The notes under the pieces: model-generated
Database searches by the model: none
What the model was told of the DNA's origin: nothing
Seen by the model: only the letters and a program-made list of their open reading frames with translations
Part shown: positions 516 through 49,990 of the stretch, in pieces
How positions within the stretch are numbered: the stretch's first letter is position 1
Layout of the letters: every line of letters begins with the position of its first letter
Position numbers and translations under genes: made by a program
NCBI RefSeq assembly: GCF_038396845.1
Contig: NZ_CP151587.1
Location: 3,797,608 to 3,861,607 of the forward strand
Direction: 5' to 3'
DNA from: Gymnodinialimonas sp. 57CJ19
Lineage (GTDB): Bacteria; Pseudomonadota; Alphaproteobacteria; Rhodobacterales; Rhodobacteraceae
DNA length: 64,000 nt

Positions 516-593
516 AGTTTCATTCCCTTTCGCCCGCCCGATCCACGGCGGCACCTAATCCAAATCCTGTTGCGCCGTGCCCGCGCCGCGCCG

Positions 594-1459: not shown

Positions 1460-1522
1460 CACGCGCGCATCTCCTCCCCTGCCCGCAAGCGCAAAGCCCG
1501 CAAACCAGACACAACGCCCCCG

Positions 1523-1543
1523 TTCACCTTGGCCATACAACTC
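1523..1543 (+). repeat. Dispersed 21-bp motif, copy 1
   Basis: Matches the consensus TTCAYCTTGGCC followed by (A)WTACAACTC. It lies between the end of ivd and the next minus-strand gene. Five more clear copies (10860, 26616, 30414, 47023, 48621) are all written on this same strand. Confidence 0.8.
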
Positions 1544-1562
1544 ATCGCAACAGCTGCCACAC

Positions 1563-2723
1563 TCACATCATTCCCATAAGTTCCCGCCCGACCAGCATGC
1601 GCCGGATCTCCGACGTCCCGGCTCCAATTTCCATCAGCTTGGCATCGCGGAACATCCGGCTCACGGGCGCGTCGTTCATAAACCCCGCGCCCCCCATGGC
1701 CTGCACCGCCTGATGGGCCACCTTCATCCCCTCTTCGCTTGCGTATAGCACACAAGCCGCCGCATCCTGGCGTGTGACCTGCCCCCGGTCACAGGCCTTG
1801 GCGACCTCGTAGGCGTAAGCGCGCGCCGAGTTCATCGAGGTATACATATCCGCAATCTTGCCCTGCATCAGTTGGAAATCCCCAATCGACTGCCCGAACT
1901 GCTTGCGTTCCTTCATGTAAGGCATGACCTCATCCAGACAGCCCGCCATGATGCCGATGTTCACGCCCGACAGCACCACGCGCTCATAATCCAACCCGCT
2001 CATCAGCACGCGGACACCGCGTCCTTCTTCGCCAAGCACATTCTCGAACGGCACTTCCACGTCTTCGAATACCAGTTCCGCCGTGTTCGACCCGCGCATA
2101 CCCATCTTGTCGAAATGCGGGCTGGTGCTGAAACCAACCATCTCCTTTTCGATGATGAACGCGGTCATCCCCTTGCTGCCGGCCTCCGGGTCCGTCTTGG
2201 CATAGACAACCAACGTGTCGGCATCGGGCCCATTTGTGATCCAGTACTTCGTGCCATTCAGCACATAGCGATCGTTGCGCTTTTCTGCCCTCAACGACAT
2301 CGACACCACGTCCGATCCCGCGCCCGCCTCGGACATCGCCAAGGCGCCTACGTGTTCACCGGATACCAGTCGCGGCAGGTACTTTTCCTTCTGCTCGACC
2401 GAACCGTTCAACTTGATCTGGTTCACGCAAAGGTTCGAATGCGCCCCGTAGGACAACCCGATCGAGGCAGAGACCCGGCTGATCTCTTCCACCGCCACCA
2501 GATGCGCCAGATAGCCCATACCCGCGCCGCCATAGGCCTCGTCAACGGTCACGCCCAAAAGGCCCAACTCACCCATCTCGGGCCACAACTCGTTGGGGAA
2601 AGCATTGTCGGCATCGACGGCGGCGGCCATGGGCTTCACCCGCTCCTGCGCCCACGTATGCACCATGTCACGCAAGGCATTCACATCCTCGCCCAGATCA
2701 AAACTCATCGAACCCAGAAACAT
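1563..2723 (-). CDS. ivd: Isovaleryl-CoA dehydrogenase
   Basis: A 386-residue acyl-CoA dehydrogenase, the normal length for the family. It oxidises isovaleryl-CoA to 3-methylcrotonyl-CoA with FAD, passing electrons to ETF. Family features are the [13 protein letters not shown] and WITNG flavin-binding segments, and a catalytic glutamate (about residue 247) in [12 protein letters not shown], the position used by isovaleryl-CoA dehydrogenases. The C-terminus carries [16 protein letters not shown]. The frame is open for 56 codons upstream, but the ATG at 2723 has GGGAGAG in front and gives the standard N-terminus. A 14-bp perfect palindrome lies 20 bp upstream. mccB follows in the same direction, making a leucine-degradation cluster. 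Confidence 0.95.
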
Positions 2724-2740
2724 CGCCCATCTCTCCCGGT

Positions 2741-2760
2741 AATTGAACGCTCGTTCATTT
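2741..2760 (-). promoter_or_regulatory. Palindromic operator candidate upstream of ivd
   Basis: TGAACG-CT-CGTTCA at 2744-2757 is a perfect 14-bp palindrome. Adding the AA/TT at each end gives 18 of 20 symmetric positions. It starts about 20 bp before the ivd ATG. The shape resembles operators of TetR-family fatty/branched-acid regulators, but the regulator is not in this window, so the identity is inferred. Confidence 0.55.
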
Positions 2761-3200
2761 AATGGCACAGCCCCCGCGTCCGAGTCAAAGGATATTGCCT
2801 CCCTCAAGCCCGTGCCCCCACCGCGCGCACCATAAGGCTTTGGCGCAACACCCCATTTTTCCGCGCTATAGAGGCTTTTGAAGATCTTCACCGGGCGTGG
2901 GTCAACACCCGCCCAACTTTACGGCCCTGTGGCCGTGTTGCCCCAGACCGCCCCCTCATTGGGCGCAGGCGCACGGCTCGGATCGCGCATATCTCCGACC
3001 CGCCGGGTGACGCCGGTGGGGGCAATCCCGTTTCAAAGCGGGCCCGCTTTTCTTTACGCCGCAATACCGCTGCCACCCATTCCGCAGCCCCCGCCAGACA
3101 GAGGCCCCCGGCAATGACACCTATCACGGATCGTCATGGCCCCCGCCCTTGTGCACCGCGCCCAAGCGCGTAACCCTGTGCCCAAAGCGCAGGAGGTCTC
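2761..3200. other. Intergenic region between divergent ivd and the PhzF-family gene
   Basis: About 440 bp with no convincing gene. A GTG-initiated minus-strand frame (2888-3127, 79 codons) begins with a hydrophobic stretch (IGVIAGGLCLAGAAEWVAAV) and could encode a tiny membrane protein. It lacks a Shine-Dalgarno sequence and the rest is low-complexity Arg/Gly/Pro, so I do not call it. The region should hold promoters for both flanking genes. Confidence 0.5.
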
Positions 3201-4061
3201 ATGCTCAATTTCCATATCTATGATGTCTTCACCGACACGGCGTTTACCGGCAATCCTCTGGCCATCGTCGAAGGGGCAGACGGCCTGACCACGGCGCAGA
3301 TGCAAACCATCGCGCGGCAGTTCAACCTGTCGGAAACCATCTTCATCCAGACGCACGATGACCCTTCGCACACCGCGAAAGTACGCATCTTTTTTCCCAC
3401 TGCGGAAATCCCCTTCGCGGGGCATCCCACCATCGGCTGCGCCCTGCATCTGGCCAACGGCGCCCCCACCGTCACCCTGGAGGAGGTCGCAGGCCTCGTG
3501 CCCGTGACCATCTCCGATGGCACCGCCGAATTCACCGCCCCGATACTCCCCCGTGCGCTGAACACCACCCCAGACCGCGCGACCATGGCCGCGGCTCTCG
3601 GGCTGGCTGAACACGATCTCGCGCCCACCGCGTTCGGGAATTTTGAGGGTGGGCCGTCCTTTCTCTACGTCGAGCTCACCACGCTCGAGGCCCTGTCCCG
3701 CTGCAAAATCTCCGAACCCGCCTTCTCGGAAACCCGCAAGACTGCTGGCGACACCGGCGCGATCTATGCCTATGTGCCCACCGGGCCAAATACGATCCAA
3801 GGCCGGATGTTCGATCCCCCCGCTGGCATCGCGGAAGATCCCGCCACAGGCTCTGCCACGGCCCTTCTGGCGGGCCACCTGCACGCGACCGGGCGCTTGC
3901 CCGCCTCCGGCACAACCACCTTCACCCTGCGCCAAGGGGTCGAAATGGGCCGCCCCTCGGACCTGCGGCTGACCATCGACACGGCCTCGAATGCCCTCAC
4001 CGCTGTGCGTGTCGCGGGCCAGGCGGTTCCCGTGGCCTCCGGCCAGATCCGCATCCCCTAA
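3201..4061 (+). CDS. PhzF-family isomerase/epimerase
   Basis: A 286-residue protein of the PhzF (phenazine biosynthesis-like, diaminopimelate-epimerase fold) family. Family marks are GNPLAIV near the start, the catalytic-glutamate region NLSETIFI, FAGHPTIG, and EDPATGSA in the C-terminal half. It is probably a soluble cytoplasmic enzyme, but the substrate is unknown. No phenazine genes are nearby, so it should not be taken as a phenazine enzyme. A strong AGGAGG precedes the ATG. The next gene (TerB-like) starts 146 bp downstream on the same strand. Confidence 0.9.
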   Translation: MLNFHIYDVFTDTAFTGNPLAIVEGADGLTTAQMQTIARQFNLSETIFIQTHDDPSHTAKVRIFFPTAEIPFAGHPTIGCALHLANGAPTVTLEEVAGLVPVTISDGTAEFTAPILPRALNTTPDRATMAAALGLAEHDLAPTAFGNFEGGPSFLYVELTTLEALSRCKISEPAFSETRKTAGDTGAIYAYVPTGPNTIQGRMFDPPAGIAEDPATGSATALLAGHLHATGRLPASGTTTFTLRQGVEMGRPSDLRLTIDTASNALTAVRVAGQAVPVASGQIRIP

Positions 4062-4207
4062 GACGCCTCCGCCCGCGCTACCGCCCCCTCCTCGGCGCTG
4101 TCACATCGGCCCACGCCACCGAAAAAATGTCGTCCTGCACCGCAGGGCACTTCTTAAGGGCGCTCCGGGGCCTTCCCCCCGCGCCACGCCGTGCCTATAG
4201 TCGACCG

Positions 4208-4648
4208 ATGATTTCAGATCTGCTCAGCCGCCTTCTGGCCCCCGCCCCTGAACCGCTTCCCCAAGCCGACGCCCGCCTTGCGCTTGCCGCCCTTCTGGTG
4301 CGTGTTGCCCGTTCCGACGGGGATTACGCCGCCGTGGAAATCGCCCGCATTGATGCGCTTCTGGCCGATCGCTACGGGCTTCTTCCGGGCCAAGCCAAGA
4401 CCCTGCGCGCGCAGGCCGAGGCGCTCGAGGCTCAGGCCCCCGACACCGTCCGTTTTACCCGCGCCATCAAGGAGTCGGTTGATCATGACGACCGTCTGGA
4501 TGTGGTCGAGGCGCTTTGGGACATTGCCCTTGCCGATGGCGAGCGTGACGAGGATGAAAACGCCCTGATGCGCCTGGTCGCCCCGATGCTCGGCATCAAT
4601 GATCGCGACAGCAATCTGGCCCGACGCCGGGTCGAGGCAAACCTTTAA
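4208..4648 (+). CDS. TerB-family (tellurite-resistance-like) protein
   Basis: A 146-residue all-helical protein of the TerB/DjlA-like family. Two acidic repeats typical of the fold are visible, DGDYAAVEIARIDALL and DGERDEDENALMRLV, each placing Asp/Glu residues that may bind metal. The ATG at 4208 gives the usual short N-terminus; codons further upstream (from 4127) do not look like protein. No other ter genes are present, so a role in tellurite resistance is doubtful and a stress or membrane-associated role is equally possible. Confidence 0.85.
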   Translation: MISDLLSRLLAPAPEPLPQADARLALAALLVRVARSDGDYAAVEIARIDALLADRYGLLPGQAKTLRAQAEALEAQAPDTVRFTRAIKESVDHDDRLDVVEALWDIALADGERDEDENALMRLVAPMLGINDRDSNLARRRVEANL

Positions 4649-4680
4649 GGGACTATGCAGGCCTCCGCCCGCCGCCTCCC

Positions 4681-4701
4681 CCCCGGCCATCTCCGCCGGG
4701 G
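4681..4701 (+). terminator. Hairpin after the TerB-like gene
   Basis: CCCCGGC and GCCGGGG form a 7-bp stem with a 7-nt loop, 33 bp after the stop codon. There is no T-run, so this is only a possible terminator. Confidence 0.3.
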
Positions 4702-4941
4702 CGCACCGGTCCTGACCATGTGCGCCACCGTCCCGATATGTCTGCGTGCCCAAACCCGGGTGGCTTGTGATGCGTGCGACACCCTCCCCCCCATTTAGGT
4801 TTCGGCGACCACGGCCATGGCCGCAAGCTGGCCCGGCATACGGCCGAAATCGACAACTTCCCCTGCGGCACCCACCCCTTGCCCGTTGCATTTCTTGGCC
4901 ATTTCGGCACAACTCAGACGAAACATCAGGGACAAGACCAC

Positions 4942-5721
4942 GTGACAACCGCCTCCCCCCCCGTGATCGAGATCAACGGATTGCACAAAAGCTTCGGTAC
5001 GCTCGACGTGCTCAAAGGCGTCGACCTCTCCGCCCATGCGGGCGATGTGGTGTCGCTGATCGGCTCTTCGGGGTCGGGGAAATCCACGCTTCTGCGCTGC
5101 GCCAACCTTCTGGAGGACAGCCAGCAGGGCGAGATCATTTTTGAGGGCGATCCGATCCGTTGGACTGGCACCGGCGACAACCGACGCCCCGCCGACTCCG
5201 AGCAGGTCCGCCTGATCCGCACCAACCTGTCGATGGTGTTTCAAAGCTTTAATCTATGGTCCCACATGACCATTTTGCAGAACGTCATGGAAGCGCCGGT
5301 TACGGTTCTGGGCGAGGATAAGGCCGAGGTCGAAGACCGCGCGCGCCGCCTGCTCGACAAGGTGGGCATCGGCGCGAAATGCGACGCCTGGCCGTCAGAG
5401 CTGTCCGGCGGGCAACAGCAACGCGCCGCCATCGCGCGGGCACTCTGCATGGAGCCGCGCGCCCTGCTGTTCGATGAGCCGACATCGGCCCTCGATCCCG
5501 AGCTGGAGCAAGAGGTGATCCGCGTCATCCGTGATCTGGCCGAGGAAGGCCGCACGATGATTCTCGTGACCCACGACATGCGCATGGCCCGCGATATCTC
5601 CTCTCACGTGATATTCCTGCACCAGGGCCTGATCGAGGAACAAGGCGCCCCGGCCGAGCTGTTCGGCCACGCCAAATCCGCGCGGCTGCGCCAATTCCTC
5701 AGCCACTCCGACGCCGCCTGA
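4942..5721 (+). CDS. Polar amino-acid-type ABC transporter ATP-binding protein
   Basis: A 259-residue ATPase of the HisP/GlnQ/AotP type. Walker A is GSSGSGKST (residues 41-49), the signature is LSGGQQQR, and Walker B with the D-loop reads LLFDEPTSALD, followed by a switch histidine in LVTHDM. The GTG at 4942 gives the family N-terminus (VIEINGLHKSFG follows). The frame is open back to 4774, but that part is not conserved-looking. It energises the importer formed with the permeases at 7563 and 8560. The next gene starts directly after its stop codon, so the genes form one operon. Confidence 0.93.
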   Translation: MTTASPPVIEINGLHKSFGTLDVLKGVDLSAHAGDVVSLIGSSGSGKSTLLRCANLLEDSQQGEIIFEGDPIRWTGTGDNRRPADSEQVRLIRTNLSMVFQSFNLWSHMTILQNVMEAPVTVLGEDKAEVEDRARRLLDKVGIGAKCDAWPSELSGGQQQRAAIARALCMEPRALLFDEPTSALDPELEQEVIRVIRDLAEEGRTMILVTHDMRMARDISSHVIFLHQGLIEEQGAPAELFGHAKSARLRQFLSHSDAA

Positions 5722-6480
5722 ATGCCGCGCTTTCTGGCTCTTGTGCTGGCCGTGATCGCCCCCCTGTGCGCCAAGGCTGAAACCCTGCGCCTCGCCACTT
5801 CTGCCGCCTATCCGCCGATGATAATTCACAACGGCGCGCCGCCCGTCAGCGGGCTCGAGGGCGATCTTCTGGCTGCCCTTTGCGCCCGCGCCGGGTGGGA
5901 TTGCCAGTGGCAAATCATGCCTTTTGATGCGATCTTTGTGGCGCTGGAGGCAGGCGAAATCGACATTGCGGCCAATTCCCTTGGCTATACCGCGGCCCGA
6001 GCGGCGCGCGTGCACATGACCTGCCCCTATCGCCCCTCCTCATCCGATGGCGCTCAGGGGACGTTCTATGTGCTCGATCCCTCCCATGACCCTCGCAGCG
6101 GCCCGATTGCAGTGCTGCGCGAAACGCTGCACGCCACCGCGCTGGCGCGTGCCGGGCTGGAGGCGCGTCCGTTTTCCGACGATCACACCGCGCTCGATGC
6201 CGTCGTGGCGGGCGACATTCCCGCCTATTTCGGGGCCGACCCGGCGGTCGAAAGCTACCCCGACCGGGGCCTTCTTGCCGCCTCGGGCGCGATGGCGATC
6301 GAAAGCGGCGGCACCTCTATCGCCGTAACGCCGTTGCGTCCCGACCTCGCGGCAGAGGTTGACGCGCAGCTGGCAAATCTATCCCGTGACGGTACCATTA
6401 CGCGCCTGACCACCCTCTGGACCGGGACGGGCGTAGACGACCCAATCGCTCTATGCGACATTGGCCTACCAATAAGCTAA
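5722..6480 (+). CDS. Periplasmic amino-acid-binding-like protein (first of two)
   Basis: A 252-residue family 3 solute-binding protein. Residues 1-19 form a signal peptide (cleavage after AKA), then LRLATSAAYPPM, the usual start of this fold. It follows the ATPase with no gap and precedes a second, more typical binding protein. It is divergent from that neighbour, so it may bind a different ligand for the same permease. Its ligand cannot be read from the sequence. Confidence 0.88.
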   Translation: MPRFLALVLAVIAPLCAKAETLRLATSAAYPPMIIHNGAPPVSGLEGDLLAALCARAGWDCQWQIMPFDAIFVALEAGEIDIAANSLGYTAARAARVHMTCPYRPSSSDGAQGTFYVLDPSHDPRSGPIAVLRETLHATALARAGLEARPFSDDHTALDAVVAGDIPAYFGADPAVESYPDRGLLAASGAMAIESGGTSIAVTPLRPDLAAEVDAQLANLSRDGTITRLTTLWTGTGVDDPIALCDIGLPIS

Positions 6481-6500
6481 CCAACAGGGAGTATCCCAAA

Positions 6501-7229
6501 ATGAAAAAACTGATCCTCGCCACTACGGCACTGACCATGACCGCTGGCATGGCCTTGGCCGATGGCCATTCCGTCGTGCGCATGGGCACCGAAGGGGCCT
6601 ACCCTCCGTATAACTTCATCAACGATGATGGCGAAGTGGACGGTCTGGAACGCGCTCTGGGCGATGAACTCTGCGCCCGTGCCGAACTGACCTGCGAATG
6701 GGTCACCAACGAGTGGGACAGCATCATCCCGAACCTGACTTCCGGCAACTACGACACGATCATTGCCGGCATGTCGATCACCGACGAGCGTGACGAAGTC
6801 ATCGACTTCACCCAAGCCTATATCCCCAACACACCCACACTTTTCATGGGCATGGACGAGGATCTGGAACTGGACGGCGCGGTTATCGCGGCTCAGACCA
6901 ACACGATCCAGGCAGGCTACATCGCCGAGCTGGAGAACGTGACACTGATCGAATTCGCCACCCCCGATGAAACCGTCGCGGCGGTACGCAACGGCGAAGC
7001 GGATGCCGTATTTGCCGACAACGACTTCATCCTGCAAGTCGCAGCCGAAGACGATGACTTGATGATCATCCTCGATCCCGTGACCCTCGGCCAGGGCGTT
7101 GGCATGGGCCTGCGTGAAGGCGATGAACTGATCGCCGTCTTTGATGCTGCCATCACCTCGATGAAGGAAGACGGCTCTCTGAACGCGCTCCTGCTGGAAT
7201 GGTTCGGCGAAGACGCCATCACCTGGTAG
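6501..7229 (+). CDS. Periplasmic polar amino-acid-binding protein (second of two)
   Basis: A 242-residue family 3 solute-binding protein with a clear signal peptide (MKKLILATTALTMTAGMALA). The mature part opens VVRMGTEGAYPPYNFI and contains the ligand-clamping segments GMSITDERDEVIDFTQAY and VRNGEADAVFADN, as in lysine/arginine/ornithine- and glutamine-type binders. The ATG at 6501 follows AGGGAG; the frame start at 6453 is inside the preceding gene. It is very acidic, as expected of a marine periplasmic protein. It is probably the main receptor of the importer. Confidence 0.92.
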   Translation: MKKLILATTALTMTAGMALADGHSVVRMGTEGAYPPYNFINDDGEVDGLERALGDELCARAELTCEWVTNEWDSIIPNLTSGNYDTIIAGMSITDERDEVIDFTQAYIPNTPTLFMGMDEDLELDGAVIAAQTNTIQAGYIAELENVTLIEFATPDETVAAVRNGEADAVFADNDFILQVAAEDDDLMIILDPVTLGQGVGMGLREGDELIAVFDAAITSMKEDGSLNALLLEWFGEDAITW

Positions 7230-7562
7230 GGCCGCTTCAACGCAACAATGAAAGCGCGGGCTGCTGAAGGCTTGGCTCGCGCTTTCAATCCTCCGGACCT
7301 TGCGGATTGCGACCTACCTGACCTACGTGCTCTGCGACAAGCTCTACAGGGCGCCGATCAGCGGCCTGCTTATTGCCTTGACCCTACTATACCCTCTACC
7401 GTTGGGCACTCTGCCTCTCGTCCGCAACTTCGCGCTCGGCGCGCGCATCATCGGGATCATCGACCACCTTCACCCTCCTCACACCGCCCAGTTTTGAAAC
7501 GCCCCCCCTTCGCGCTTCACCTTTTTATAAATATCGAAAAAACGGCCCGCTCCACACACCCC
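7230..7562 (+). other. Gap between the binding-protein and first permease genes
   Basis: This 333-bp gap lies inside the ABC operon. It holds a strong hairpin (7250-7286) just after the binding-protein gene. A 65-codon TTG-started frame (7300-7497) with one hydrophobic stretch has no ribosome binding site and is left uncalled. Near 7515 there is a degenerate relative of the dispersed motif (CTTCACC then ATAAATATC). Confidence 0.5.
7250..7286 (+). terminator. Stem-loop behind the binding-protein gene (partial terminator or mRNA stabiliser)
   Basis: GAAAGCGCG (7250-7258) and CGCGCTTTC (7278-7286) form a perfect 9-bp stem with a 19-nt loop, 20 bp after the stop. There is no T-run. Such stems commonly protect or attenuate the transcript so that binding protein outnumbers permease. 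That role is inferred from position. Confidence 0.6.
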
Positions 7563-8444
7563 ATGTTCAGCTTTTGCTCCGATCCCTCCACCCTCGACAC
7601 GTTCCGCTGGTTCAGCTGCTACCTGACCAACGGCGTTCATATCCTGTTTTATCAGAGCTTTCTGACCGTCGGCCTGCTGCTGTTAATCGCCGCCCCCCTG
7701 TCGCTTGGCATCGGCTTTGCCGCCGCCACCGCCAGCCGCGCCCGTAACCTGCCCGCGCGACTGATCGGCAAAACCTACACCGCCATGGTGCGTGGCGTGC
7801 CCGATATCGTGTTCTTCCTGTTCTTCGTGCTCGTGCTGGATCAAGGGATCGAATACATCCGCCATATCGTAACCTGCCCCGACTGGGACGAGCCGATCCG
7901 CCAAGGCGCCAACTTCCTCGTGTGCGACGCGGCCCGCACGCCCCAAGGCAACGCCCCACAATGGGTACATGAAAGCTACAACTTCGCCCTGGCTACATTC
8001 ACCTACGCCATCGTCTTCGGCGCATTTTGCGGCAACGTGCTCTACGGCGCGATGGGCGCTGTTCCCAAAACTCAATTGGAGACCGCAAGCGCATATGGCA
8101 TGTCTCAACGGCAAATCTTCTGGCGCATCTTGGTGCCGCAAATGTGGGTCTACGCGCTGCCGGGCCTATCCAACATCTGGATGATCCTGATCAAGGCGAC
8201 CCCCCTGCTGTTCCTCCTGGGGATCGAAGATATCGTCTACTGGGCCCGTGAAATCGGTGGCTCTCGCAATTCCCGCTTTGCGTATCCGCACCCGGATTGG
8301 CGCTTCTGGTACTTCCTTGGGCTGTTGATCTTCTATCTCTGCTTCACTCGTGTGTCGGAACTCGTCCTCTCTCGCCTCACCCACCGCCTCTCCCGGGGCC
8401 AAGCCACCGCGGGCGGCGAAGCCCTGCGCAAGGCCGCCCCATGA
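7563..8444 (+). CDS. Amino-acid ABC transporter permease (HisQ type)
   Basis: A 293-residue inner-membrane permease with about five to six hydrophobic segments. The EAA loop that contacts the ATPase reads GAMGAVPKTQLETASAYGMS, followed by QRQIFWRILVPQMW. The ATG at 7563 starts MFSFCSDPSTLDTFRW; the frame remains open to 7248 without coding character. It pairs with the permease at 8560. A four-unit TTGCAA palindrome array fills the short gap between them. Confidence 0.92.
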   Translation: MFSFCSDPSTLDTFRWFSCYLTNGVHILFYQSFLTVGLLLLIAAPLSLGIGFAAATASRARNLPARLIGKTYTAMVRGVPDIVFFLFFVLVLDQGIEYIRHIVTCPDWDEPIRQGANFLVCDAARTPQGNAPQWVHESYNFALATFTYAIVFGAFCGNVLYGAMGAVPKTQLETASAYGMSQRQIFWRILVPQMWVYALPGLSNIWMILIKATPLLFLLGIEDIVYWAREIGGSRNSRFAYPHPDWRFWYFLGLLIFYLCFTRVSELVLSRLTHRLSRGQATAGGEALRKAAP

Positions 8445-8467
8445 GCGCCCGCCGCCCCGCTCCGCCA

Positions 8468-8553
8468 AAGACTTTTGCAAAAGTCTTCCCAGAGCCTTGC
8501 AAGGCTCTGCCCACGCCCTTGCAAGGGCGTGCCAAATCCTTTGCAAAGGATTT
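8468..8553. repeat. TTGCAA palindrome array 1 (four units, 22-bp period)
   Basis: Four perfect 20-bp palindromes share the core TTGCAA but have different arms: AAGACTT at 8468-8487, CAGAGCC at 8490-8509, CACGCCC at 8512-8531 and AAATCCT at 8534-8553. Their centres are exactly 22 bp apart. Each could fold into a 7-8 bp RNA stem or bind a symmetric protein. The array ends 6 bp before the next ATG. Confidence 0.9.
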
Positions 8554-8559
8554 CCCCGC

Positions 8560-9399
8560 ATGACCTGCATCGACGCGATCCAAGCCTACGCCCTGCGTGC
8601 CATCGGCATCGGCGAACGCGCCTTGCCCCAGGGCGAAATCAGCCTTTGCGAACAATTCGTTCTGATCGGCTCCGGCATGATCTGGAACGTCTACTTCGGC
8701 GTCCTCGCCCTCTCCTTCGGCTTCTTCTTCGCCCTGGCCCTCGCCTTGGCGAAAACCTCGCCGCGCTGGCTGATCCGCAAACCGGCAGAATGGTTCATCT
8801 TTCTGTTCCGAGGCTCGCCTCTCTTCATCCAATTCTTCATGGCCTATGAAGCCTTCGTGATGATCCCCCGCATGGGCTACGAATTCGAGCTGTTCGGCAT
8901 CGCGATCGAAGCTGAAACCCGTTGGTTGGCCCGGGCCTGGCTTGGCGCCCTGATCGTCTTGTTTTGCAACACCTCCGCCTATGCCGCCGAGATCTTCTAC
9001 GGCGCGCTCCGCTCCGTTCCCAAAGGTGATCTGGAAGCCGCCGATGCCTACGGCCTGACCGGCTGGAAAAAGTTTCGCCGCATTACCTTCCCCACTACCA
9101 TGCGCCTCGCTTGGCCTGCCTACACTAATGAAGCGATCTTCCTGTTTCACGCCACAGCGTTGGTGTTCTTCAGCTCTTTCCCCGCTTTCCAACAGCGCGG
9201 CGACGCGCTCTATTACGCCTCATATTTCGCCGACCGGACGTTCAACCCCTTCATCCCCTACCCCATCGTGGCGGGCTATTTCATCGCCGTGGCTCTGCTG
9301 GTCATTGCGCTATTTGGCGCCATCAACCGCCGCCTCAACCGTCACCTCCCCTCTGACCAGAAGCGTCGCCTCCGCATCCGCCCCACTCTCATCCGCTAA
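8560..9399 (+). CDS. Amino-acid ABC transporter permease (HisM type)
   Basis: A 279-residue permease, the second half of the heterodimeric membrane channel. The EAA loop is GALRSVPKGDLEAADAYGLT, followed by GWKKFRRITFPTTMRLAW. Hydrophobic segments are spread through the length, with an Arg-rich C-terminal tail. I choose the ATG at 8560 (MTCIDAIQAYAL); everything upstream in this frame is the palindrome array and the end of the other permease. That array would sit in the 5' leader of this gene and overlap its ribosome-loading region. Confidence 0.91.
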   Translation: MTCIDAIQAYALRAIGIGERALPQGEISLCEQFVLIGSGMIWNVYFGVLALSFGFFFALALALAKTSPRWLIRKPAEWFIFLFRGSPLFIQFFMAYEAFVMIPRMGYEFELFGIAIEAETRWLARAWLGALIVLFCNTSAYAAEIFYGALRSVPKGDLEAADAYGLTGWKKFRRITFPTTMRLAWPAYTNEAIFLFHATALVFFSSFPAFQQRGDALYYASYFADRTFNPFIPYPIVAGYFIAVALLVIALFGAINRRLNRHLPSDQKRRLRIRPTLIR

Positions 9400-9485
9400 G
9401 CCTGCCCCCACAAACGGCACTTGCGAGGTCACCGCCTCAGGCGTAAGGCTCATGCATCTCAACCCTCTTTACCCCCCTGTGTCCC

Positions 9486-10838
9486 ATGACCGCTCCCCAG
9501 GCTCCGGCCGACTTCCTTCACGATAATCCGCAAATCAAATCCATCCGTATGGTCGCCTCTGACCTGAACGGCCAAGCCCGTGGCAAACGGGTTGCCCGGC
9601 GTTTCGCGGGCAAGGCGATCAAGGACGGTACCCGCTTTCCCTATTCGGTCCTTAACCTCGATATCTGGGGCGAAGACATCGACGACAGCCCCCTGGTGTT
9701 CGAGGCCGGTGACCCCGATGGCATCCTCTACCCCACCTCCCGTGGCCTGGTGCCCGTCCCTTGGCTGGAAACCCCTACGGCGATCCTGCCGATCTGGATG
9801 TTCCACGACGACGGCACCCCCTATATGGGCGACCCTCGCCACGCCCTGGCCCGTGTGGTCGACCGCTACAAGGCGCGCGGCCTCACCCCCGTGGTCGCCA
9901 CGGAGCTGGAGTTCTACATCATCGACGACCGGGGCCGCGAACTCCGCGTGCCGCCCTCGCCGCGCTCCGGCATCCGCCGCCAACAGGCCGAGATCCTCGC
10001 CCTGCGCCAACTCGACGCCTTCGACACCTTCCTCACCGCGCTCTATGACGCTTGCGAGGCGATGGATATCCCCGCCGACACGATGATCTCCGAAGCCGGC
10101 CCCGGCCAGTTCGAGATCAATATGGACCACCAGCCCGATGCGATGAAAGCCGCCGACGACGCTTGGCTGTTCAAGGTCCTGACCCGGGGCCTCGCCCGCT
10201 CCCATGGGTTTGCCGCCAGCTTCATGGCCAAACCCTACCCCGATTACGCCGGTAATGGCCTCCATACGCACTTCAGCGTCCTCGACGCCGACGGGAACAA
10301 CATCTTCGACAACGGCGGCGCTGAAGGCTCCGACACGCTGCAGCACGCCATCGCCGGCTGCCTCGCCGCCATGCCCGGCTCCATGCTGATCTTTGCGCCC
10401 CATGCCACCAGCTACGACCGCTTCGTGCCCGGTGCCCATGCCCCCACCGCCGCCGCTTGGGCCTATGAGAACCGGACCACCGCCCTGCGTATCCCCGCGG
10501 GCAACCCCTCAGCGCGCCGGATCGAACACCGCGTCGCGGGCGGCGATATCAATCCCTACCTCTTCCTCGCCGCCGTCCTCGGCGCCGCCCTCGATGGGAT
10601 CGAACAAGGCCTCCCCCCCGCCCCTGCGATCCAAGGCAGCGCCTACACGGCCGAGCTGCCGCAACTGCCCCTTACCTGGGCCGATGCCATCACAGCTTTC
10701 GACCAATCCCCTGAGATTCAACGCATCTTCGCCCCCGAACTGCGCGAAACCTTCCTCGCCACCAAACGCCAGGAACTCAAATACATGGCCGACCTCTCCC
10801 CCGAAGAACAACAGGAGCTCTACCTCGACACCGTCTGA
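9486..10838 (+). CDS. Glutamine-synthetase-family gamma-glutamyl ligase (PuuA-like), copy 1
   Basis: A 450-residue member of the glutamine synthetase superfamily (shortened class I form). Conserved pieces are VVATELEFYI, the ammonium/ATP region SEAGPGQFEINMDH, GNGLHTHFSV, and the arginine-rich ENRTTALRIP with RRIEHRVAGGDINPYL. In bacterial amine catabolism such proteins join glutamate to an amine (PuuA on putrescine, GmaS on methylamine, and others). The position downstream of an importer and upstream of a PuuB-like oxidase supports polyamine or amine gamma-glutamylation. The exact amine is unknown. A second homologue lies at 11680. Confidence 0.9.
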   Translation: MTAPQAPADFLHDNPQIKSIRMVASDLNGQARGKRVARRFAGKAIKDGTRFPYSVLNLDIWGEDIDDSPLVFEAGDPDGILYPTSRGLVPVPWLETPTAILPIWMFHDDGTPYMGDPRHALARVVDRYKARGLTPVVATELEFYIIDDRGRELRVPPSPRSGIRRQQAEILALRQLDAFDTFLTALYDACEAMDIPADTMISEAGPGQFEINMDHQPDAMKAADDAWLFKVLTRGLARSHGFAASFMAKPYPDYAGNGLHTHFSVLDADGNNIFDNGGAEGSDTLQHAIAGCLAAMPGSMLIFAPHATSYDRFVPGAHAPTAAAWAYENRTTALRIPAGNPSARRIEHRVAGGDINPYLFLAAVLGAALDGIEQGLPPAPAIQGSAYTAELPQLPLTWADAITAFDQSPEIQRIFAPELRETFLATKRQELKYMADLSPEEQQELYLDTV

Positions 10839-10859
10839 CCCTCACGCAACGCTCCCCCA

Positions 10860-10880
10860 TTCATCTTGGCCTTACAACTC
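10860..10880 (+). repeat. Dispersed 21-bp motif, copy 2
   Basis: TTCATCTTGGCC followed by TTACAACTC, then CCGGGGG and two GC hairpins (10888-10935). It lies between two plus-strand genes. Confidence 0.8.
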
Positions 10881-10887
10881 CGGGGGT

Positions 10888-10935
10888 TTGGGGGCTGGCC
10901 CCCAATGAAGGTTGCGTTTGGGGGCTGGCCCCCAA
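10888..10935 (+). repeat. Twin direct-repeat hairpins
   Basis: TTGGGGGC-TG-GCCCCCAA occurs twice, at 10888-10905 and 10918-10935, exactly 30 bp apart. Each is an 8-bp palindromic stem. They follow the dispersed motif and may act as weak terminators between the ligase and amidotransferase genes. Confidence 0.7.
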
Positions 10936-10981
10936 GTCGCCAACCAATCCACCCACCACTCCAAACCACACGAGCTTCCCC

Positions 10982-11683
10982 ATGCACCTCGGCATCTTGC
11001 AAACCGGACACGTCCCCACCGAAGTCGCTTCCACCGATGGCCCCTATGCCACACTGTTCCGCAAGCTCTTTGCGCACCGCGGCTTCAGCCAAACGCTATG
11101 GTCCGTGGTCGATGGAGAATTCCCCTCCGGCCCCGAAGCGGCCGACGCTTGGCTGGTGACGGGCTCCAAACACGGTGCTTATGAAGATCACGCCTGGATC
11201 CCCCCGCTGGAGGACCTGATCCGCGCGATCCGTGAAGCGGAAATCCCTCTCGTGGGGTCCTGCTTCGGGCACCAGATCATTGCCCAAGCGCTCGGCGGCA
11301 CGGTGGAAAAATACGCCGAGGGTTGGTCCGTGGGCCGCACTCAATACAAGGTCGGCGACCAGACCCTGAACCTCAACGCCTGGCACCAGGACCAAGTCAC
11401 CCAGCTGCCCGACGGGGCGACGGTCCATGCCTCTTCCGACTTCTGCGCCAACGCGATCGTGGCCATCGGGCCGCGCATCCTGACCACACAACCGCACCCG
11501 GAATTCGCCAACTCGGTCATCGAGTCGTTGATCGACCTGAAAGGCGACGCCGTGGAACCCGACCGTTTGGCCATCGCCAAAACCCTGCTGTCCGAGCCCA
11601 ACGACAACCGCCTGATCGCCGATTGGCTCGCCGACGTGCTAGAAGGGGCGGACGCCACAAAACCAAGGGACTTTTCCCAATGA
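10982..11683 (+). CDS. Class I glutamine amidotransferase (GuaA-N-like)
   Basis: A 233-residue Triad amidotransferase. The nucleophile Cys sits in VGSCFGHQIIAQALGG and the His-Glu pair in TQPHPEF. This motif is of the GMP-synthase-amidotransferase type and not the GICRG form of PuuD, so it may hydrolyse a gamma-glutamyl compound by a different family. It is placed between two gamma-glutamyl ligases, and its TGA overlaps the ATG of the second one (ATGA), suggesting coupled translation and a joint pathway. Release of glutamate from a gamma-glutamylated amine or acid is the likely role, by context only. Confidence 0.88.
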   Translation: MHLGILQTGHVPTEVASTDGPYATLFRKLFAHRGFSQTLWSVVDGEFPSGPEAADAWLVTGSKHGAYEDHAWIPPLEDLIRAIREAEIPLVGSCFGHQIIAQALGGTVEKYAEGWSVGRTQYKVGDQTLNLNAWHQDQVTQLPDGATVHASSDFCANAIVAIGPRILTTQPHPEFANSVIESLIDLKGDAVEPDRLAIAKTLLSEPNDNRLIADWLADVLEGADATKPRDFSQ

Positions 11684-13041
11684 TTCCCGCCGAATTTCTC
11701 GCCAAACTGCCCGATGTCGCCCGCACCTACCTGGAGGGCCGCACCCTGGATGAGGTCGAATGTATCGTCTCGGACCTTGCGGGCGTGGCGCGGGGCAAGG
11801 CGATGCCGGGTACGAAATTTGCGCGCCAGACCCAGTTCTACCTGCCCAACTCGATCTTTTTCCAGACCATTACAGGGGATTGGGCCGATGAGGTCGGCGA
11901 TGGCTTCACCGAGCCGGACATGATCCTGACCCCGGATTTTGACACCGCCCTGCCCGCCCCTTGGACAGCCGATTGGACGCTTCAGGTGATCCACGACATC
12001 CACGACCAACAGGGCGACCCGGTCTCTTTCGCGCCGCGCAACGTGCTGAAACGGGTGGTGGAGCTCTACAACGCGCGGGGCTGGCAGCCGATTGTTGCCC
12101 CCGAGATGGAATTCTACCTCGTCGCCCCCAACACCGACCCGGCGCAGGAAATCGTGCCGCCCATGGGCCGCTCTGGCAGACGCGCGGCGGCGCGGCAGGC
12201 GTATTCCATGTCCGCCGTGGATGAATACGGTCAAGTCATTGATGATATTTACGATTTCGCCGAGGCGATGGGGCTGGAGATTGACGGCATCCTGCAAGAA
12301 GGCGGCGCAGGCCAGATCGAATTGAACCTGCGTCACGGCGATCCGGTCAAGCTCGCCGATGAGATGTTCTACTTCAAGCGGATGATCCGGGAAGCGGCGC
12401 TGAAGCACGATATGTACGCGACTTTCATGGCCAAACCCATCGCCGGAGAGCCGGGGTCCGCGATGCATATCCACCACTCGGTCGTGGACGCGGCGACGGG
12501 GCAAAACATCTTCTCGGACGCCGATGGCGCGGAGACCCCCGCCTTCATGCATTTCATCGGCGGCATGCAACGCAACATGCCCGCCGTGATCGCCCTTCTG
12601 GCGCCCTATGTGAACAGCTATCGCCGCTATGTACCTGATTTCGCCGCCCCAATTAACCTCGAATGGGGGCGCGACAACCGGACCACAGGGCTGCGGGTGC
12701 CGGTCTCCGGCCCCGAGGCGCGGCGGGTGGAAAACCGTCTTCCGGGGATGGATTGCAACCCTTATCTGGGTATCGCCGCCAGCCTTGCGACAGGCTATCT
12801 GGGCTTGGTGGAGGGCAAAGGTCCGTCCGAGGAATTCAAGGGCGACGCCTATTCCGCCGAAAGCGGTGTGCCGCGCGGGTTGGGTGACGCTCTGGGCCTG
12901 CTGGAGGCCAACCTGGGCGTGCGCCAATGCTTGGGAGAGGACTTCTGCCGCGTCTATTCCGGCGTCAAGCAGTTGGAATATAACGAGTTCCTGCACGTCA
13001 TCAGCCCTTGGGAGCGGGAGCATTTGTTGCTGAATGTCTAG
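11680..13041 (+). CDS. Glutamine-synthetase-family gamma-glutamyl ligase (PuuA-like), copy 2
   Basis: A 453-residue paralogue of the gene at 9486. It shows the same active-site segments: IVAPEMEFYL, EGGAGQIELNLRHG, GSAMHIHHSV, DNRTTGLRVP and RRVENRLPGMDCNPYL. The ATG overlaps the stop of the amidotransferase. The N-terminus (MIPAEFLAKLPDVARTYLEG) differs from copy 1, so the two ligases have diverged and may accept different amines or act as mixed oligomers. Neither is likely to be the housekeeping GlnA, which is longer and usually sits next to glnB. Confidence 0.9.
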   Translation: MIPAEFLAKLPDVARTYLEGRTLDEVECIVSDLAGVARGKAMPGTKFARQTQFYLPNSIFFQTITGDWADEVGDGFTEPDMILTPDFDTALPAPWTADWTLQVIHDIHDQQGDPVSFAPRNVLKRVVELYNARGWQPIVAPEMEFYLVAPNTDPAQEIVPPMGRSGRRAAARQAYSMSAVDEYGQVIDDIYDFAEAMGLEIDGILQEGGAGQIELNLRHGDPVKLADEMFYFKRMIREAALKHDMYATFMAKPIAGEPGSAMHIHHSVVDAATGQNIFSDADGAETPAFMHFIGGMQRNMPAVIALLAPYVNSYRRYVPDFAAPINLEWGRDNRTTGLRVPVSGPEARRVENRLPGMDCNPYLGIAASLATGYLGLVEGKGPSEEFKGDAYSAESGVPRGLGDALGLLEANLGVRQCLGEDFCRVYSGVKQLEYNEFLHVISPWEREHLLLNV

Positions 13042-13345
13042 ACACGCGCCCGGCAGCAAGGATTGGTGGCTTGAGACCGCCCTGATCGCGGGCAGCGGCG
13101 TTGCTCTGGCGGCTTTCCTTTGGGACGGGCCGATATTTGCGGGCGGCGACGCCGTGTCTGCGGCCACGCCAATGGTCGCGCCCGGACCTGCGCGCGCCCC
13201 CGCGCCTGTGCCTGTGCCTGTGCCTCGAACGGTGGCGGACCTGGTGGATGCGGGCTGCCTGACCCAGGAAAACCTTCGCGCCATGGTGGAAGGCCGAACG
13301 ATCTACGTGGCCTGCCCGTTGCATCCGCAGGATCCCTCGCCATGA
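13034..13345 (+). CDS. Small single-pass membrane protein of unknown function
   Basis: A 103-residue protein whose ATG overlaps the last codons of the ligase and whose TGA overlaps the ATG of the oxidase (ATGA). It has one hydrophobic segment (about residues 15-32), then an Ala/Pro/Val linker with a short PVPVPVP repeat, and a small C-terminal domain with two cysteines (DAGCLTQENL, YVACPLHP). The tight overlaps on both sides say it belongs to the operon. I do not recognise the family. Confidence 0.75.
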   Translation: MSRHAPGSKDWWLETALIAGSGVALAAFLWDGPIFAGGDAVSAATPMVAPGPARAPAPVPVPVPRTVADLVDAGCLTQENLRAMVEGRTIYVACPLHPQDPSP

Positions 13346-14637
13346 ACGCGCTTTATCGCAACGACCGCCCCGGACGCCACGCGCCTTCGGTCTATGCAGC
13401 GGGCGTCAGTGCGCCGGAACGCGCCCCCCTGACCGGAGAAATCAGCGTTGATGTGGCGGTGATCGGCGCGGGCTTCACCGGGTTGTGGGCCGCGTTGACC
13501 TTGGCGAAAGCCGGGCGGTCTGTGGTGGTGCTGGACGCGCACCGCGTGGGTTTTGGCGCCTCTGGGCGCAACGGCGGGCAGGTGCATTCGGGCTTCAACA
13601 TGGGCCAACGGGCGTTGGAGGACCGCTTGGGCAAGGACCGCGCCCACGCCCTGTGGGACTTGGCGGAAGCGGGCAAGGACCAGCTCCGCGCTTTTTGCGA
13701 AACGGCCCCGGAAACCCACTATCGCCCCGGCGTGGCCCATGGCGAATACAGCCCCCTGTCTTTGGCAGAGGCCCGCCTGGAGGCCGATCATATGGCCCGG
13801 AACTACGGGCTGAAAACCGACGTCATGGGCCGTGACGCCTTTGCAGAATTGGTCAAAGCCCCCGCCTATGTGGGTGGCACTTTGGACGAAAGCGGCGGGC
13901 ATTTGCAGCCTTTGGCCTATGCCTTGGCTTTGGCCCGCGCCGCCGAGGCCGCAGGCGCGGTCATATTCGAGCGGACCGAAGTGCTGAGCGTGACAGAGGG
14001 GACGCGGGTGCGCCTGACCACGCCGCGCGGGCGCATCAATGCGGGCCACGTGATTGCCGCGGGCAATGGCTATCTGCCGAACCTGTTGCCGCAGGTAAAC
14101 CGCAGGGTCATGCCGATCAATTCCTTCATCGCCGCGACCGAGCCGCTTCCCGAGCGCTGGCACGAGGTCATGGCCCGAGACATCGCCGTATCCGATAGCA
14201 AGTTCGTGGTGAATTATTATCGCTTCGACCACGAGAGGCGGTTCCTGTTTGGCGGGCGGGAAAGCTACTCCATCGGATTTCCCAAAGACATTAAGACGGC
14301 CCTCGTTGCGCGGATGGCGCAACTGTTCCCGCAGCTCTCCGGCGTGAAGGTGGATTACGTGTGGGGCGGATCGCTGGGAATAACGCCAAGCCGCCTGCCC
14401 CATGTGGCCCGCGTCGGCTCCAAGGTGCTGTCTGGGGCCGGATTTTCCGGCCACGGGGTCGCGCTGAGCGGGATGGCGGGCCGGGTAATGGCCGAGGCTG
14501 TTCTGGGCCAAGAAGACGGCTTGGCCACGTTCGACACCCTGAAAATCCCTGCGTTTCCAGGGGGTACGGCCCTGCGCACGCCGATCCTGACGCTGGCCAT
14601 GTCGTGGTTTGCGTTGCGCGATCGCATCGGCCTCTAG
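13342..14637 (+). CDS. puuB: FAD-dependent amine oxidoreductase, gamma-glutamylputrescine oxidase type
   Basis: A 431-residue DAO-family flavoenzyme, the size of PuuB. The dinucleotide-binding motif is VAVIGAGFTGLWAALTLAKAG (from about residue 36), followed by GFGASGRNGGQVHSGFN, a hallmark of the PuuB/OrdL group, and a C-terminal FAD segment GAGFSGHGVALSGMAGRVMAE. It would oxidise a gamma-glutamylated amine to the aldehyde. It follows two PuuA-like ligases and shares an ATGA overlap with the preceding small gene. The substrate is inferred from context. Confidence 0.88.
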   Translation: MNALYRNDRPGRHAPSVYAAGVSAPERAPLTGEISVDVAVIGAGFTGLWAALTLAKAGRSVVVLDAHRVGFGASGRNGGQVHSGFNMGQRALEDRLGKDRAHALWDLAEAGKDQLRAFCETAPETHYRPGVAHGEYSPLSLAEARLEADHMARNYGLKTDVMGRDAFAELVKAPAYVGGTLDESGGHLQPLAYALALARAAEAAGAVIFERTEVLSVTEGTRVRLTTPRGRINAGHVIAAGNGYLPNLLPQVNRRVMPINSFIAATEPLPERWHEVMARDIAVSDSKFVVNYYRFDHERRFLFGGRESYSIGFPKDIKTALVARMAQLFPQLSGVKVDYVWGGSLGITPSRLPHVARVGSKVLSGAGFSGHGVALSGMAGRVMAEAVLGQEDGLATFDTLKIPAFPGGTALRTPILTLAMSWFALRDRIGL

Positions 14638-14664
14638 GCAAAAACCGGACAATTTCCGCTGACG

Positions 14665-14681
14665 GCGACGTTGTCGCTTTT
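14665..14681 (+). terminator. Short terminator-like hairpin after the oxidase gene
   Basis: GCGAC-GTT-GTCGC followed by TTTT, starting 28 bp after the stop codon. The 5-bp stem is short but the T-run follows directly. It separates the ligase/oxidase operon from the DegT gene. Confidence 0.5.
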
Positions 14682-14742
14682 CTGTGCCGTTCTTCTGCAT
14701 ATATAAGCAAAACGAAATATCACATTTTGAAATGGTGAATAT

Positions 14743-15954
14743 ATGTCCACGCTGTCCGCTCCGAACGTCTACGACGCCGAACCGATCCCCGAGGCCGCCC
14801 GCGCCGAGATTGACCGTCTTCTGCAAAGCGGCGACCTGTTTCGCTACACCGCCCCCGAAGACGCGCCCGTAGCCCTGCTGGAGCGTGAATTCGCCGCGAT
14901 GATGGGCACGAAATACGCGCTGGCGGTGTCGAGCTGTTCGGCCGCGCTGTTCTTGTCGTTGGAGGCGCTGGATCTGGGCAAGGACGCCAAGGTAATGATC
15001 CCCGCGTTCACCTTTGCCGCCGTCCCGTCGTCCATCGTGCACGCGGGCTTGCAGCCGGTCCTGTGTGAAGTGGCCGACAACTACCGCGTCGATATGGTTG
15101 ATTTCATGGAGAAACTACCCGGCGTGCAAGCGGTTCTGATCAGCCACATGCGGGGCCATACCTCGGACATGGACGCGATCTCGGCCGCCTGTGAAGCGGC
15201 GGGCGTGCCACTGATCGAAGATGCGGCCCATTCCCTGGGAACCGAGTGGCACGGCAAGAAGATCGGCACGATCGGCAAGGTTGGCTGCTTCAGCTTCCAG
15301 TCCTACAAATTGATTAACGCGGGCGAAGGCGGGATCATGATCACCGACGACGCAGATCTGGTGGCGCGCGCCGTGATCATGTCGGGCGCCTATGAGCATA
15401 ATTGGGCGAAGCACGGCGATGACACTGCGCTGGTAGAGGCCTTTGGCCGCTGGCAGAACAAGCTGCCGCTCTACAACCTGCGGATGCAGAACCTGAGTGC
15501 AGCCGTGATCCGGCCCCAATTGCCCGAAGTGGCGCGTCGGGTACGCGACGGCCGCAAGAACCACGACTACGTAGCTGCGGCGCTGAACACCTCGGATTGG
15601 CTGAATGTGCCGGACCCCCTTGGCCCGGAAGAGCGCGCACCGGATTCAATCCAGTTCAACCTGCAAGGCTTTGACAGCGACGCCGAGGCCCGCGCCTTCG
15701 CGGACGCCGCCGCCGCAAGGGGCGTGAAGGTGCAGATCTTCGGCCTGAGCACGGACAACGCACGGGCCTTCTGGAACTGGCAATTTATCCCCGGGGACCT
15801 GCCCGAGCTGCCCCAAACCCGAGCGATGCTGATGCGCGCCTGTGACGCCCGTTTGCCCGCGAGGCTGCAAAAAGCAGACCTCGACCACATCATCGGGGCG
15901 CTCCTGTCCGCCGCCGAAGACGTCAAAGGCACCGCTCGCGCCTACGGCACGTGA
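14743..15954 (+). CDS. DegT/DnrJ/EryC1/StrS-family PLP aminotransferase
   Basis: A 403-residue PLP enzyme. The Schiff-base lysine is in SFQSYKLINAGEGG, preceded by the aspartate segment PLIEDAAHSLGTEW; MIPAFTFAAVPSSIVHAG matches the family core. Members usually aminate nucleotide sugars, but no sugar genes are near and the flanking genes concern amine catabolism. The AT-rich leader (14700-14742) carries an imperfect inverted repeat (CACATTT and AAATGGTG) just before the ATG, a possible operator, so it may have its own promoter. The substrate is unknown. Confidence 0.88.
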   Translation: MSTLSAPNVYDAEPIPEAARAEIDRLLQSGDLFRYTAPEDAPVALLEREFAAMMGTKYALAVSSCSAALFLSLEALDLGKDAKVMIPAFTFAAVPSSIVHAGLQPVLCEVADNYRVDMVDFMEKLPGVQAVLISHMRGHTSDMDAISAACEAAGVPLIEDAAHSLGTEWHGKKIGTIGKVGCFSFQSYKLINAGEGGIMITDDADLVARAVIMSGAYEHNWAKHGDDTALVEAFGRWQNKLPLYNLRMQNLSAAVIRPQLPEVARRVRDGRKNHDYVAAALNTSDWLNVPDPLGPEERAPDSIQFNLQGFDSDAEARAFADAAAARGVKVQIFGLSTDNARAFWNWQFIPGDLPELPQTRAMLMRACDARLPARLQKADLDHIIGALLSAAEDVKGTARAYGT

Positions 15955-15960
15955 GCCGCA

Positions 15961-16050
15961 CAAATCTTTTGCAAAAGATTTGCGAACGCCCTTGCAAGGG
16001 CGTTGGACAGAGCCTTGCAAGGCTCTGTTCAGGGTTTTGCAAAACCCTGA
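15961..16050. repeat. TTGCAA palindrome array 2 (four units, 22-23 bp period)
   Basis: Four perfect palindromes are centred on TTGCAA at 15971.5, 15994.5, 16017.5 and 16039.5, with arms AAATCTT, AACGCCC, CAGAGCC and CAGGGTT. Read on the other strand, array 1 has the arm order AAATCCT, CACGCCC, CAGAGCC, AAGACTT. Array 2 is therefore an inverted homologue of array 1 with paired changes in the arms. Confidence 0.9.
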
Positions 16051-16164
16051 TGCCGGACGGGAGAGAAGGGCGGCGGGTGAGATAATGCGCCGTCTCGATA
16101 ATCCCTATTGAGGGAGGCGCGGCGCAGGCGTACCTTCGGGCAACCTTGTTTGAGAGTGTTCGAC

Positions 16165-17526: not shown

Positions 17527-17584
17527 GGTGCTGGTTGAGGGTGCGGGAGTCGATATTTATGAAAAGGTGAAGGGAGGCGGCGCG

Positions 17585-49927: not shown

Positions 49928-49990
49928 CCCAGACCCAGACCCAGACCCAGACCCTTGCAAGGGTCTGATCAGGCTCTTGCAAGAGCCTGA
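49928..49990. repeat. TTGCAA palindrome array 3 (two units) with a hexamer repeat
   Basis: CCCAGA is repeated four times from 49928. The last repeats merge into the palindrome CAGACCC-TTGCAA-GGGTCTG (49948-49967). A second palindrome with TCAGGCTC arms follows (49969-49990). Centres are 22 bp apart, as in array 1. It lies just after nlpD. Confidence 0.85.

Follow-up and report, generated by a model that had tools for sequence, protein, structure and literature searches.

The Permease Junction

The window, a stretch of 64,000 nucleotides, contains at 8468-8553 an array of four perfect 20-bp palindromes with centres at 8477.5, 8499.5, 8521.5 and 8543.5, each built on a TTGCAA core, following one another in exact 22-bp steps, as the initial annotation had described; the spacers are 2 bp long and read CC. 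An ABC-transporter operon had been proposed as the setting, in agreement with the assignment of both flanking genes as BPD_transp_1 permeases. The features referred to in the text are the following:

7248..8444, + strand, first permease, BPD_transp_1; the listed start is uncertain, and the stop is the gene end adjoining the array
8441..8563, + strand, linking ORF of 40 codons, traversing the whole 8468-8553 array
8468..8487, no strand, palindrome unit 1, AAGACTT-TTGCAA-AAGTCTT
8490..8509, no strand, palindrome unit 2, CAGAGCC-TTGCAA-GGCTCTG
8512..8531, no strand, palindrome unit 3, CACGCCC-TTGCAA-GGGCGTG
8534..8553, no strand, palindrome unit 4, AAATCCT-TTGCAA-AGGATTT
8560..9399, + strand, second permease, BPD_transp_1 (domain assignment)
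15961..16050, no strand, second window array, four units, following the stop of a gene for a DegT-type aminotransferase by 7 bp and preceding the upstream region of the gene after it
49948..49990, no strand, third window array, two units, 30 bp past the stop of a LysM/M23 peptidase gene

The array begins 23 bp past the first permease stop and ends 6 bp before the second permease ATG. The ATG of the linking ORF overlaps the first permease stop and its TGA overlaps the second permease start, in each case as ATGA. At the empty site, found in G001, G003, G006, G008, G009 and G010, the two permeases overlap directly by ATGA. Inserts with arrays occupy the junction in the genome of the window (G000) and in G002, G004, G007, G011 and G012, where the linking ORFs measure 40 to 47 codons and the one of G011 begins with TTG; the linking ORF was in frame in 8/8 examined genomes with an insert. 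Since the insert lengths differ and the reading frame is nevertheless retained, these sequences suggest that the translational coupling of the permeases is kept by translating through the array. The junctions of G005 (L092) and G014 (L099) carry unrelated hairpin-bearing inserts, GGGGGCAGAGCCCCC and GGGGGCTCTGCCCCC, with linking ORFs in frame of 51 and 32 codons.

The RNA fold predicted for 8468-8553 consists of four separate 8-bp hairpins, each with a UGCA loop (z −3.75). In the whole window, five TTGCAA-N16-TTGCAA pairs were counted, and the mean of 100 shuffles was 0.01, none reaching five. Ten of the 21 TTGCAA hexamers of the window make up the three arrays, each lying at the centre of a palindrome whose arms are perfect for 10 bp or more; the remaining 11 have at most 3/7 arm positions matching.

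Abundance, Phase and Position of the Arrays

The G000 chromosome (3.86 Mb) contains 43 TTGCAA-N14-18-TTGCAA pairs, as compared with 0 for the reversed control. A few of these 43 are not palindrome pairs; a stricter pattern gave 40 against 0, and a looser single-unit pattern 85 matches against 12 in the control. In this genome-wide search the units were clustered and phased far above chance, which speaks against the possibility, raised with the first description, that such palindromes occur singly and unspaced at chance frequency.

A total of 145 arrays of at least two units, 142 in fetched loci and 3 in the window, were analyzed as a sample and not as the full set of each genome. The genomes G000 (window included), G002, G003, G004, G011 and G012 supplied 95 of them, and 50 came from other pattern-matching loci; G000 was sampled in 20 regions, one with a single unit, and the G002 arrays are those among the matches listed. 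Among the 145 are orthologues (21 groups, assembled where at least one flank was similar), and two arrays enter the count twice, L130 and L174 being one genome, as are L142 and L232; L113 is likewise identical to L119. Array positions are based on gene calls by a simple ORF and GC3 script.

Two units were found in 47 arrays, three in 37, four in 58 and five in 3. The step between neighbours (n = 307) was 22 bp in 195 cases, 23 bp in 74 and 24-25 bp in 15, with one step each of 20 and 21 bp and 21 steps of at least 40 bp; spacers measured 2-5 nt in 284/307 steps. A gene 3' end points at the array within 50 bp in 136/145 cases, at a median distance of 9 bp and at 15 bp or less in 104. Forty arrays lie between convergent gene ends, both of them near, 96 serve one near gene, and 9 have none within 50 bp. 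The initial annotation had tied the possible role to the second permease start or to this operon, which is not supported, the same arrays following the stop codons of many other genes. Since arrays generally sit at gene 3' ends, the 8468-8553 array, though near both permeases, belongs to the 3' end of the first rather than to the start of the second.

Arm Pairing and Covariation

In the 21 groups of orthologous arrays, located at common gene junctions, the units stand out as conserved islands. Over 13 species pairs the spacers differ at 162/301 sites and the flanks at 811/1700, whereas 1626/1743 arm pairs are unchanged, in counts that are mutually non-independent and leave out five too-dissimilar unit comparisons and the array pairs of unequal unit number. 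All of the two-sided arm changes (101/101) replace one Watson-Crick pair by another, 45 by transition and 56 by transversion, and one-sided changes number 16. In unit 4 of the permease array (8534..8553), G012 has C-G in place of the core-adjoining T-A pair, both sides having changed. Between G000 and G002, which are the closest pair, changes were found in 1/322 arm pairs, 17/71 spacer sites and 52/300 flank sites. Neutral template-switch repair of imperfect palindromes was rejected as the sole cause, as by our reasoning it should change arms about as fast as spacers (seen, 1/322 against 17/71). Because old same-site copies keep their arms while spacers and flanks diverge, the alignments indicate that the arrays are maintained in place by strong selection. 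Related genomes keep the self-complementarity of the arms, the point on which the first description could have failed in a comparison of orthologous gaps.

Among 129 distinct units, 873/903 arm pairs are Watson-Crick (765/774 of the internal ones); the others are 9 internal (2 G-T, 2 A-C, 5 other) and 21 terminal (5 G-T, 2 A-C, 14 other), and 420/452 units are perfect. The percentages paired are partly produced by construction, because units were accepted only with at least 5/7 arm pairs. When TTGCAA hexamers in or near arrays (n = 461) were taken, 421 matched at 7/7 arm positions, 32 at 6, none at 5 and 8 at 4 or fewer; elsewhere in the same loci, 117/119 matched at 4 or fewer. The covariation score was 0.93, as compared with 0.24 for shuffled and at most 0.31 for slid partners, in 70 units chosen from the 129 distinct ones; this set holds mostly the commonest units and leaves out most units with terminal mismatches, so that its values of 99.3% paired and 1 G-U in 560 cells flatter the pairing. 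These results support the proposed set of stems, which have a loop and a fixed phase in common and whose arms vary but remain, with few exceptions, self-complementary.

One-gene arrays, taken in the sense orientation of that gene, show 7 internal mismatches among 1866 pairs (1 G-U, 3 A-C, 2 T-T and 1 A-A). The mismatches, small in number, do not show the G-U excess predicted for one-strand RNA, and it therefore seems that selection requires both strands, or else the DNA itself, to pair.

Core, Arm Diversity and Folding

Only the core is common to the copies: 112 distinct 5' arms occur among 452 units, and 93% of units have A as the second arm base. The centre is non-complementary in 11/476 units, and internal arm pairs in 10/2712. 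One G364 unit has CC/GG at its centre in 17/25 copies (intact arms being required for a copy to be counted), the arms being kept in the alignment. These non-complementary centres suggest, at the sequence level, a hairpin rather than a plain dyad.

A repeated arm was found in 2/145 arrays, orthologues included, as compared with 15.6 expected by random dealing (minimum 5 in 1000 trials). When every unit was given the GC-richest arm of its array, 0/98 arrays folded as separate hairpins, against 55/98 native ones; in 43/98 the minimum-energy fold differs from the row of separate hairpins. The inner units of four-unit arrays have a GC content of 0.72 and the outer ones 0.47 and 0.50, and the mean unit energy is −9.6 kcal/mol. 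All TTNNAA cores fold equally well, and therefore hairpin stability does not explain the GC centre.

A stop triplet occurs in 3/452 units against 123 expected. Stop-codon avoidance was rejected as the driver of the arm sequence, since TG is depleted in general too (4 against 81), so that a purine-to-pyrimidine pattern explains the scarcity of stop triplets equally well.

Distribution among Genomes

Within the genus, seven genomes (G000, G002, G003, G004, G007, G011 and G012) are rich in arrays, with pair counts of 43, 37, 16, 42, 15, 26 and 29, and six (G001, G005, G006, G008, G009 and G010) are poor, with 0-2 pairs (control 0-3). No palindrome clusters were found in the matching 16-20 kb stretches of array-poor relatives. 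As 6/13 genus genomes hold 0-2 pairs, the element is dispensable. G003 has four array junctions in common with G000, G004, G011 or G012, and yet it groups with the array-poor G006, G001 and G005; in view of these common junctions, arrays were probably lost wholesale more than once, as judged on a one-gene tree. On that tree (14 rows) three changes of gain or loss are needed, at least two of them forced by well-supported branches, and 5/11 inner branches are open. The array-free gap in the chromosome was considered as a replication-terminus effect and this was rejected, the gaps in G000 and among the listed G002 matches lying, by eye, not opposite rsmG, taken as the origin mark.

In the family, taken to be Rhodobacteraceae, at least one match to the stricter TTGCAA pair pattern was found in 69/394 genomes (393 genera), few of them with many, and the TTCGAA pair pattern matched in 167/394, six of which have 20 to 106 (forward count); single matches are often background according to the control columns, and the TTCGAA matches were mostly taken without palindrome inspection. 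Records of Roseibacterium, Roseicyclus and Nioella contain units. In a sample of the phylum, 63/398 genomes matched, with at most three matches each outside the family. An exact match outside the family, one of 55 pattern matches, was seen in Helicobacter labacensis (L149), possibly by chance or because the site is coding.

The design also occurs in other genera, there with other cores. G061 (L259, L262, L265, L268 and L271) has four-unit arrays with TTCGAA as the outer and TTGCAA as the inner cores. In G348 (L325, L326, L329, L333, L337 and L339), arrays of three or four units, mostly at 24-bp spacing, show GTCGAC, TTCGAA and TGCGCA cores in a fixed order; two-unit TTCGAA arrays are present in addition, and 11/20 sampled clusters of this genome lie within 50 bp of a 3' end. 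G364 (L260, L263, L266, L269, L272 and L304-L313) contains a dispersed element, some 180 bp long, whose palindromes are arranged two plus two. The palindromes are near-identical between copies and the middle of about 70 bp diverges; 11/19 examined copies lie between convergent genes, 39 of 50 listed pairs (64 in total) are letter-identical, and the 2+2 layout is common to 21 distinct fetched copies.

Comparison with Known Systems

The initial annotation had known of no named element with this design, and none was found here. The Rfam 15 search of window positions 8200-8900 gave zero matches at E up to 1, and a search of seven array loci at the gathering threshold returned two tRNAs only, so that a known structured RNA family was discarded for lack of an Rfam match to the arrays. 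A plasmid or phage origin of the window copy was also dropped, since PLSDB and INPHARED gave zero matches at E 1e-3. A CRISPR array was rejected because the repeats differ within an array and the spacers are mostly of 2-5 bp.

REP, BIME and REPIN sequences are GTAG- or CGTC-tagged palindromes with RAYT, and share with the arrays that they are dispersed, extragenic, clustered, near stop codons and patchy in copy number; the extragenic location near gene 3' ends applies to 136/145 arrays within 50 bp. Unlike them, the arrays are near-perfect, use many different arms per genome and consist of 2-5 phased units with spacers mostly of 2-5 bp. A palindrome sequence common to the copies is absent in the genus; G364 and one G348 array type do have such a sequence. 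The divergence of spacers (162/301) and flanks (811/1700) argues against a fixed GTAG/CGTC foot tag in the genus. The search for RAYT with PF01797 gave zero hits in G000, G002, G004, G011 and G012, 21.2 bits in G003 (below the cut-off of 23) and, for G007 taken with its neighbours, 23.3 bits (just over it); no Y1 transposase above the cut-off was found in the six array-richest genomes of the genus. RAYT-driven REPs were rejected with five array genomes giving no Y1_Tnp match and G003 and G007 weak ones.

Intrinsic terminators, bidirectional ones included, resemble the arrays in having hairpins past stop codons, common to convergent genes, and compensatory pair switches, and a stable hairpin does follow the stop here (median distance 9 bp). 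In contrast to terminators, the arrays are tandem and without a U-tract, G-U is rare, and 45/101 switches are transitions. TTTT was found in 0/176 gene-side flanks of 10 nt, in which T accounts for 13%. For terminators of B. cereus, the consulted part of PMC5381666 gives 79% A-U/G-C switches, with a G-U intermediate in 89.5% of the resolved ones. By the criterion of this study, a U-tract terminator is present at 1/52 gene ends of the window, and a looser scan of positions 1-20000 found 19 terminator-like sites against 17.2 in shuffles.

Clusters of hairpins have been proposed as terminators for which poly-U is unneeded, with 98% of the correctly identified sites at most 80 bases past the stop (Gupta and Pal 2021, PMC8355165, consulted part). 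By their spacers and position the array hairpins are likewise grouped close past the stop; however, the clusters described in that part are predicted ordinary hairpins, whereas the arrays are sequence-defined, phased and dispersed, with a fixed core and covarying arms. Among the top-ranked literature matches, in the parts consulted, tandem phased hairpins with a constant apex and free Watson-Crick arms differing within an array are not described. Hairpin repeats past stop codons as such are already known.

The attC sites of integrons are recognised through a folded hairpin, and their arm sequence is largely free. The likeness is one of principle only, the array unit being 20 bp long, perfect and tandem.

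Proposed Function and Alternatives

The position, the phase, the strict Watson-Crick covariation, the conserved core and the differing arms within an array are best explained if the feature at 8468-8553 is one copy of a dispersed 3'-end element, made of 2-5 near-perfect 20-bp palindromes with a TTNNAA apex, mostly 22-23 bp apart, and acting as a hairpin signal on both strands. We give this reading a probability of about 0.45. Each unit would fold alone directly behind the terminating ribosome when the region is transcribed from either side, and the resulting hairpin stack would set or protect the transcript 3' end, RNA polymerase being stopped or released without a U-tract, alone or with Rho, and 3'-to-5' exonucleases being blocked. 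An element serving the transcripts of both strands would exclude G-U pairs, because a G-U pair in one transcript corresponds to A-C in the opposite one, and differing arms among the units of an array would let each pair with itself and not with its neighbour. In the permease operon, the linking ORF would keep translational coupling across the insert. We infer the molecular step of this 3'-end action, for which RNA polymerase or Rho, exonucleases, a loop-binding protein and DNA topology are all candidate readers. Several observations weigh against the reading: the missing U-tract, the 43/98 arrays with another minimum-energy fold, the GC centre that stability does not explain, the array-poor genomes of the genus, the array-free 16-kb sites of G009 and G010, which show no classic terminator, and the 11/20 clusters of G348. 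Full termination would also do damage at the permease array, which is internal to an operon and which, as the linking ORF implies, ribosomes traverse; against one-strand RNA, G-U is not favoured even in one-gene arrays, which points to DNA as much as to both-strand RNA.

More tentatively, the arrays may constitute a new class of gene-end elements in this family, mutually orthogonal hairpins acting on both strands or as DNA, in which a trans factor would read the foot and an apex that is TTGCAA, TTCGAA or GTCGAC depending on the lineage, the stem needing only to pair with itself; loss of the factor would then be followed by wholesale loss of arrays.

It is possible, though doubtful, that the palindromes act as DNA, through cruciform or hairpin extrusion or by binding a nucleoid or topology protein at gene ends, where they would absorb supercoils or insulate genes. 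The symmetry is strict on both strands (G-U 1 against A-C 3 in one-gene arrays), 56/101 pair switches are transversions, and most cores are fully self-complementary, although the arrays were found through the TTGCAA core. Gyrase binds some REP clusters in E. coli. The arms are short, however, and some centres are non-complementary, like the loop of a hairpin; and while cruciform-capable repeats are enriched past E. coli stop codons, the consulted part of PMC6060812 attributes most of those to intrinsic terminators. A REP- or MITE-like mobile hairpin that copies itself into gene ends, with arm conservation due to transposition and not to host function, is an unlikely explanation. It would fit the uneven copy number (from 0 to 43 pairs in a single genus), the letter-identical pairs (39 of 50 listed) and common 2+2 layout of G364, the constant order of units in G348 arrays of the GTCGAC type and the permease junction, which is cleanly empty in some genomes and filled in others; yet Y1 gave no match in G000, G002, G004, G011 and G012 and one weak match each in G003 and G007, and old same-site copies keep their arms while spacers and flanks diverge. 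Mobility may describe the origin of the arrays but not their present role.

Quite improbable is an action on translation, in which hairpins about 15 nt from the stop would slow the terminating ribosome and lower the output of the upstream gene. Although 104/136 arrays lie at most 15 bp past a stop, and ribosome stalling has been reported for E. coli REPs that lie at most 15 nt from a stop (PMC12306157, consulted part), such an effect accounts neither for several units nor for the scarcity of G-U, and in the window the gap to the array is 23 bp and the ribosome seems to translate the array. Least credible, and very improbable in our view, are phased operators for a symmetric protein that binds double-stranded DNA and reads TTGCAA, one of the two readings put forward initially. 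The constant core, the spacing of about two helical turns and the preference for A as the second arm base (93% of units) would suit them, but 112 distinct arms occur among 452 units, the spacing slips from 22 to 25, and the arrays are placed behind genes, not before them. Because the arms differ between sites and yet change on both sides together, a classical operator is unlikely.

In a GC-rich genome where U-tract terminators are few, the arrays offer a natural way of testing what defines a 3' end. The scarcity of G-U intermediates is a sharp probe of whether selection acts on one-strand RNA, on both strands or on DNA, and, close relatives having many or next to no arrays, a partner factor could be sought by comparison of gene content.

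The best direct hint at a terminator-like role, from one site in one genome, is found at the second array of the window (15961..16050), which has a stop codon on one side and, on the other, the upstream region that belongs to the following gene: the corresponding site of G023, a genome from another genus, carries a classic terminator with T8. No classic terminator was found at this site in the array-free G009 and G010. In the G023 record (L234, 9765-9900), two degenerate TTCGAA palindromes follow the T8 terminator. About 50 bp upstream of an ATG, CCCTATTGAGGG is found at window positions 16103-16114, with similar letters before the matching gene in G002, G012, G009 and G010, and is possibly a promoter or operator.
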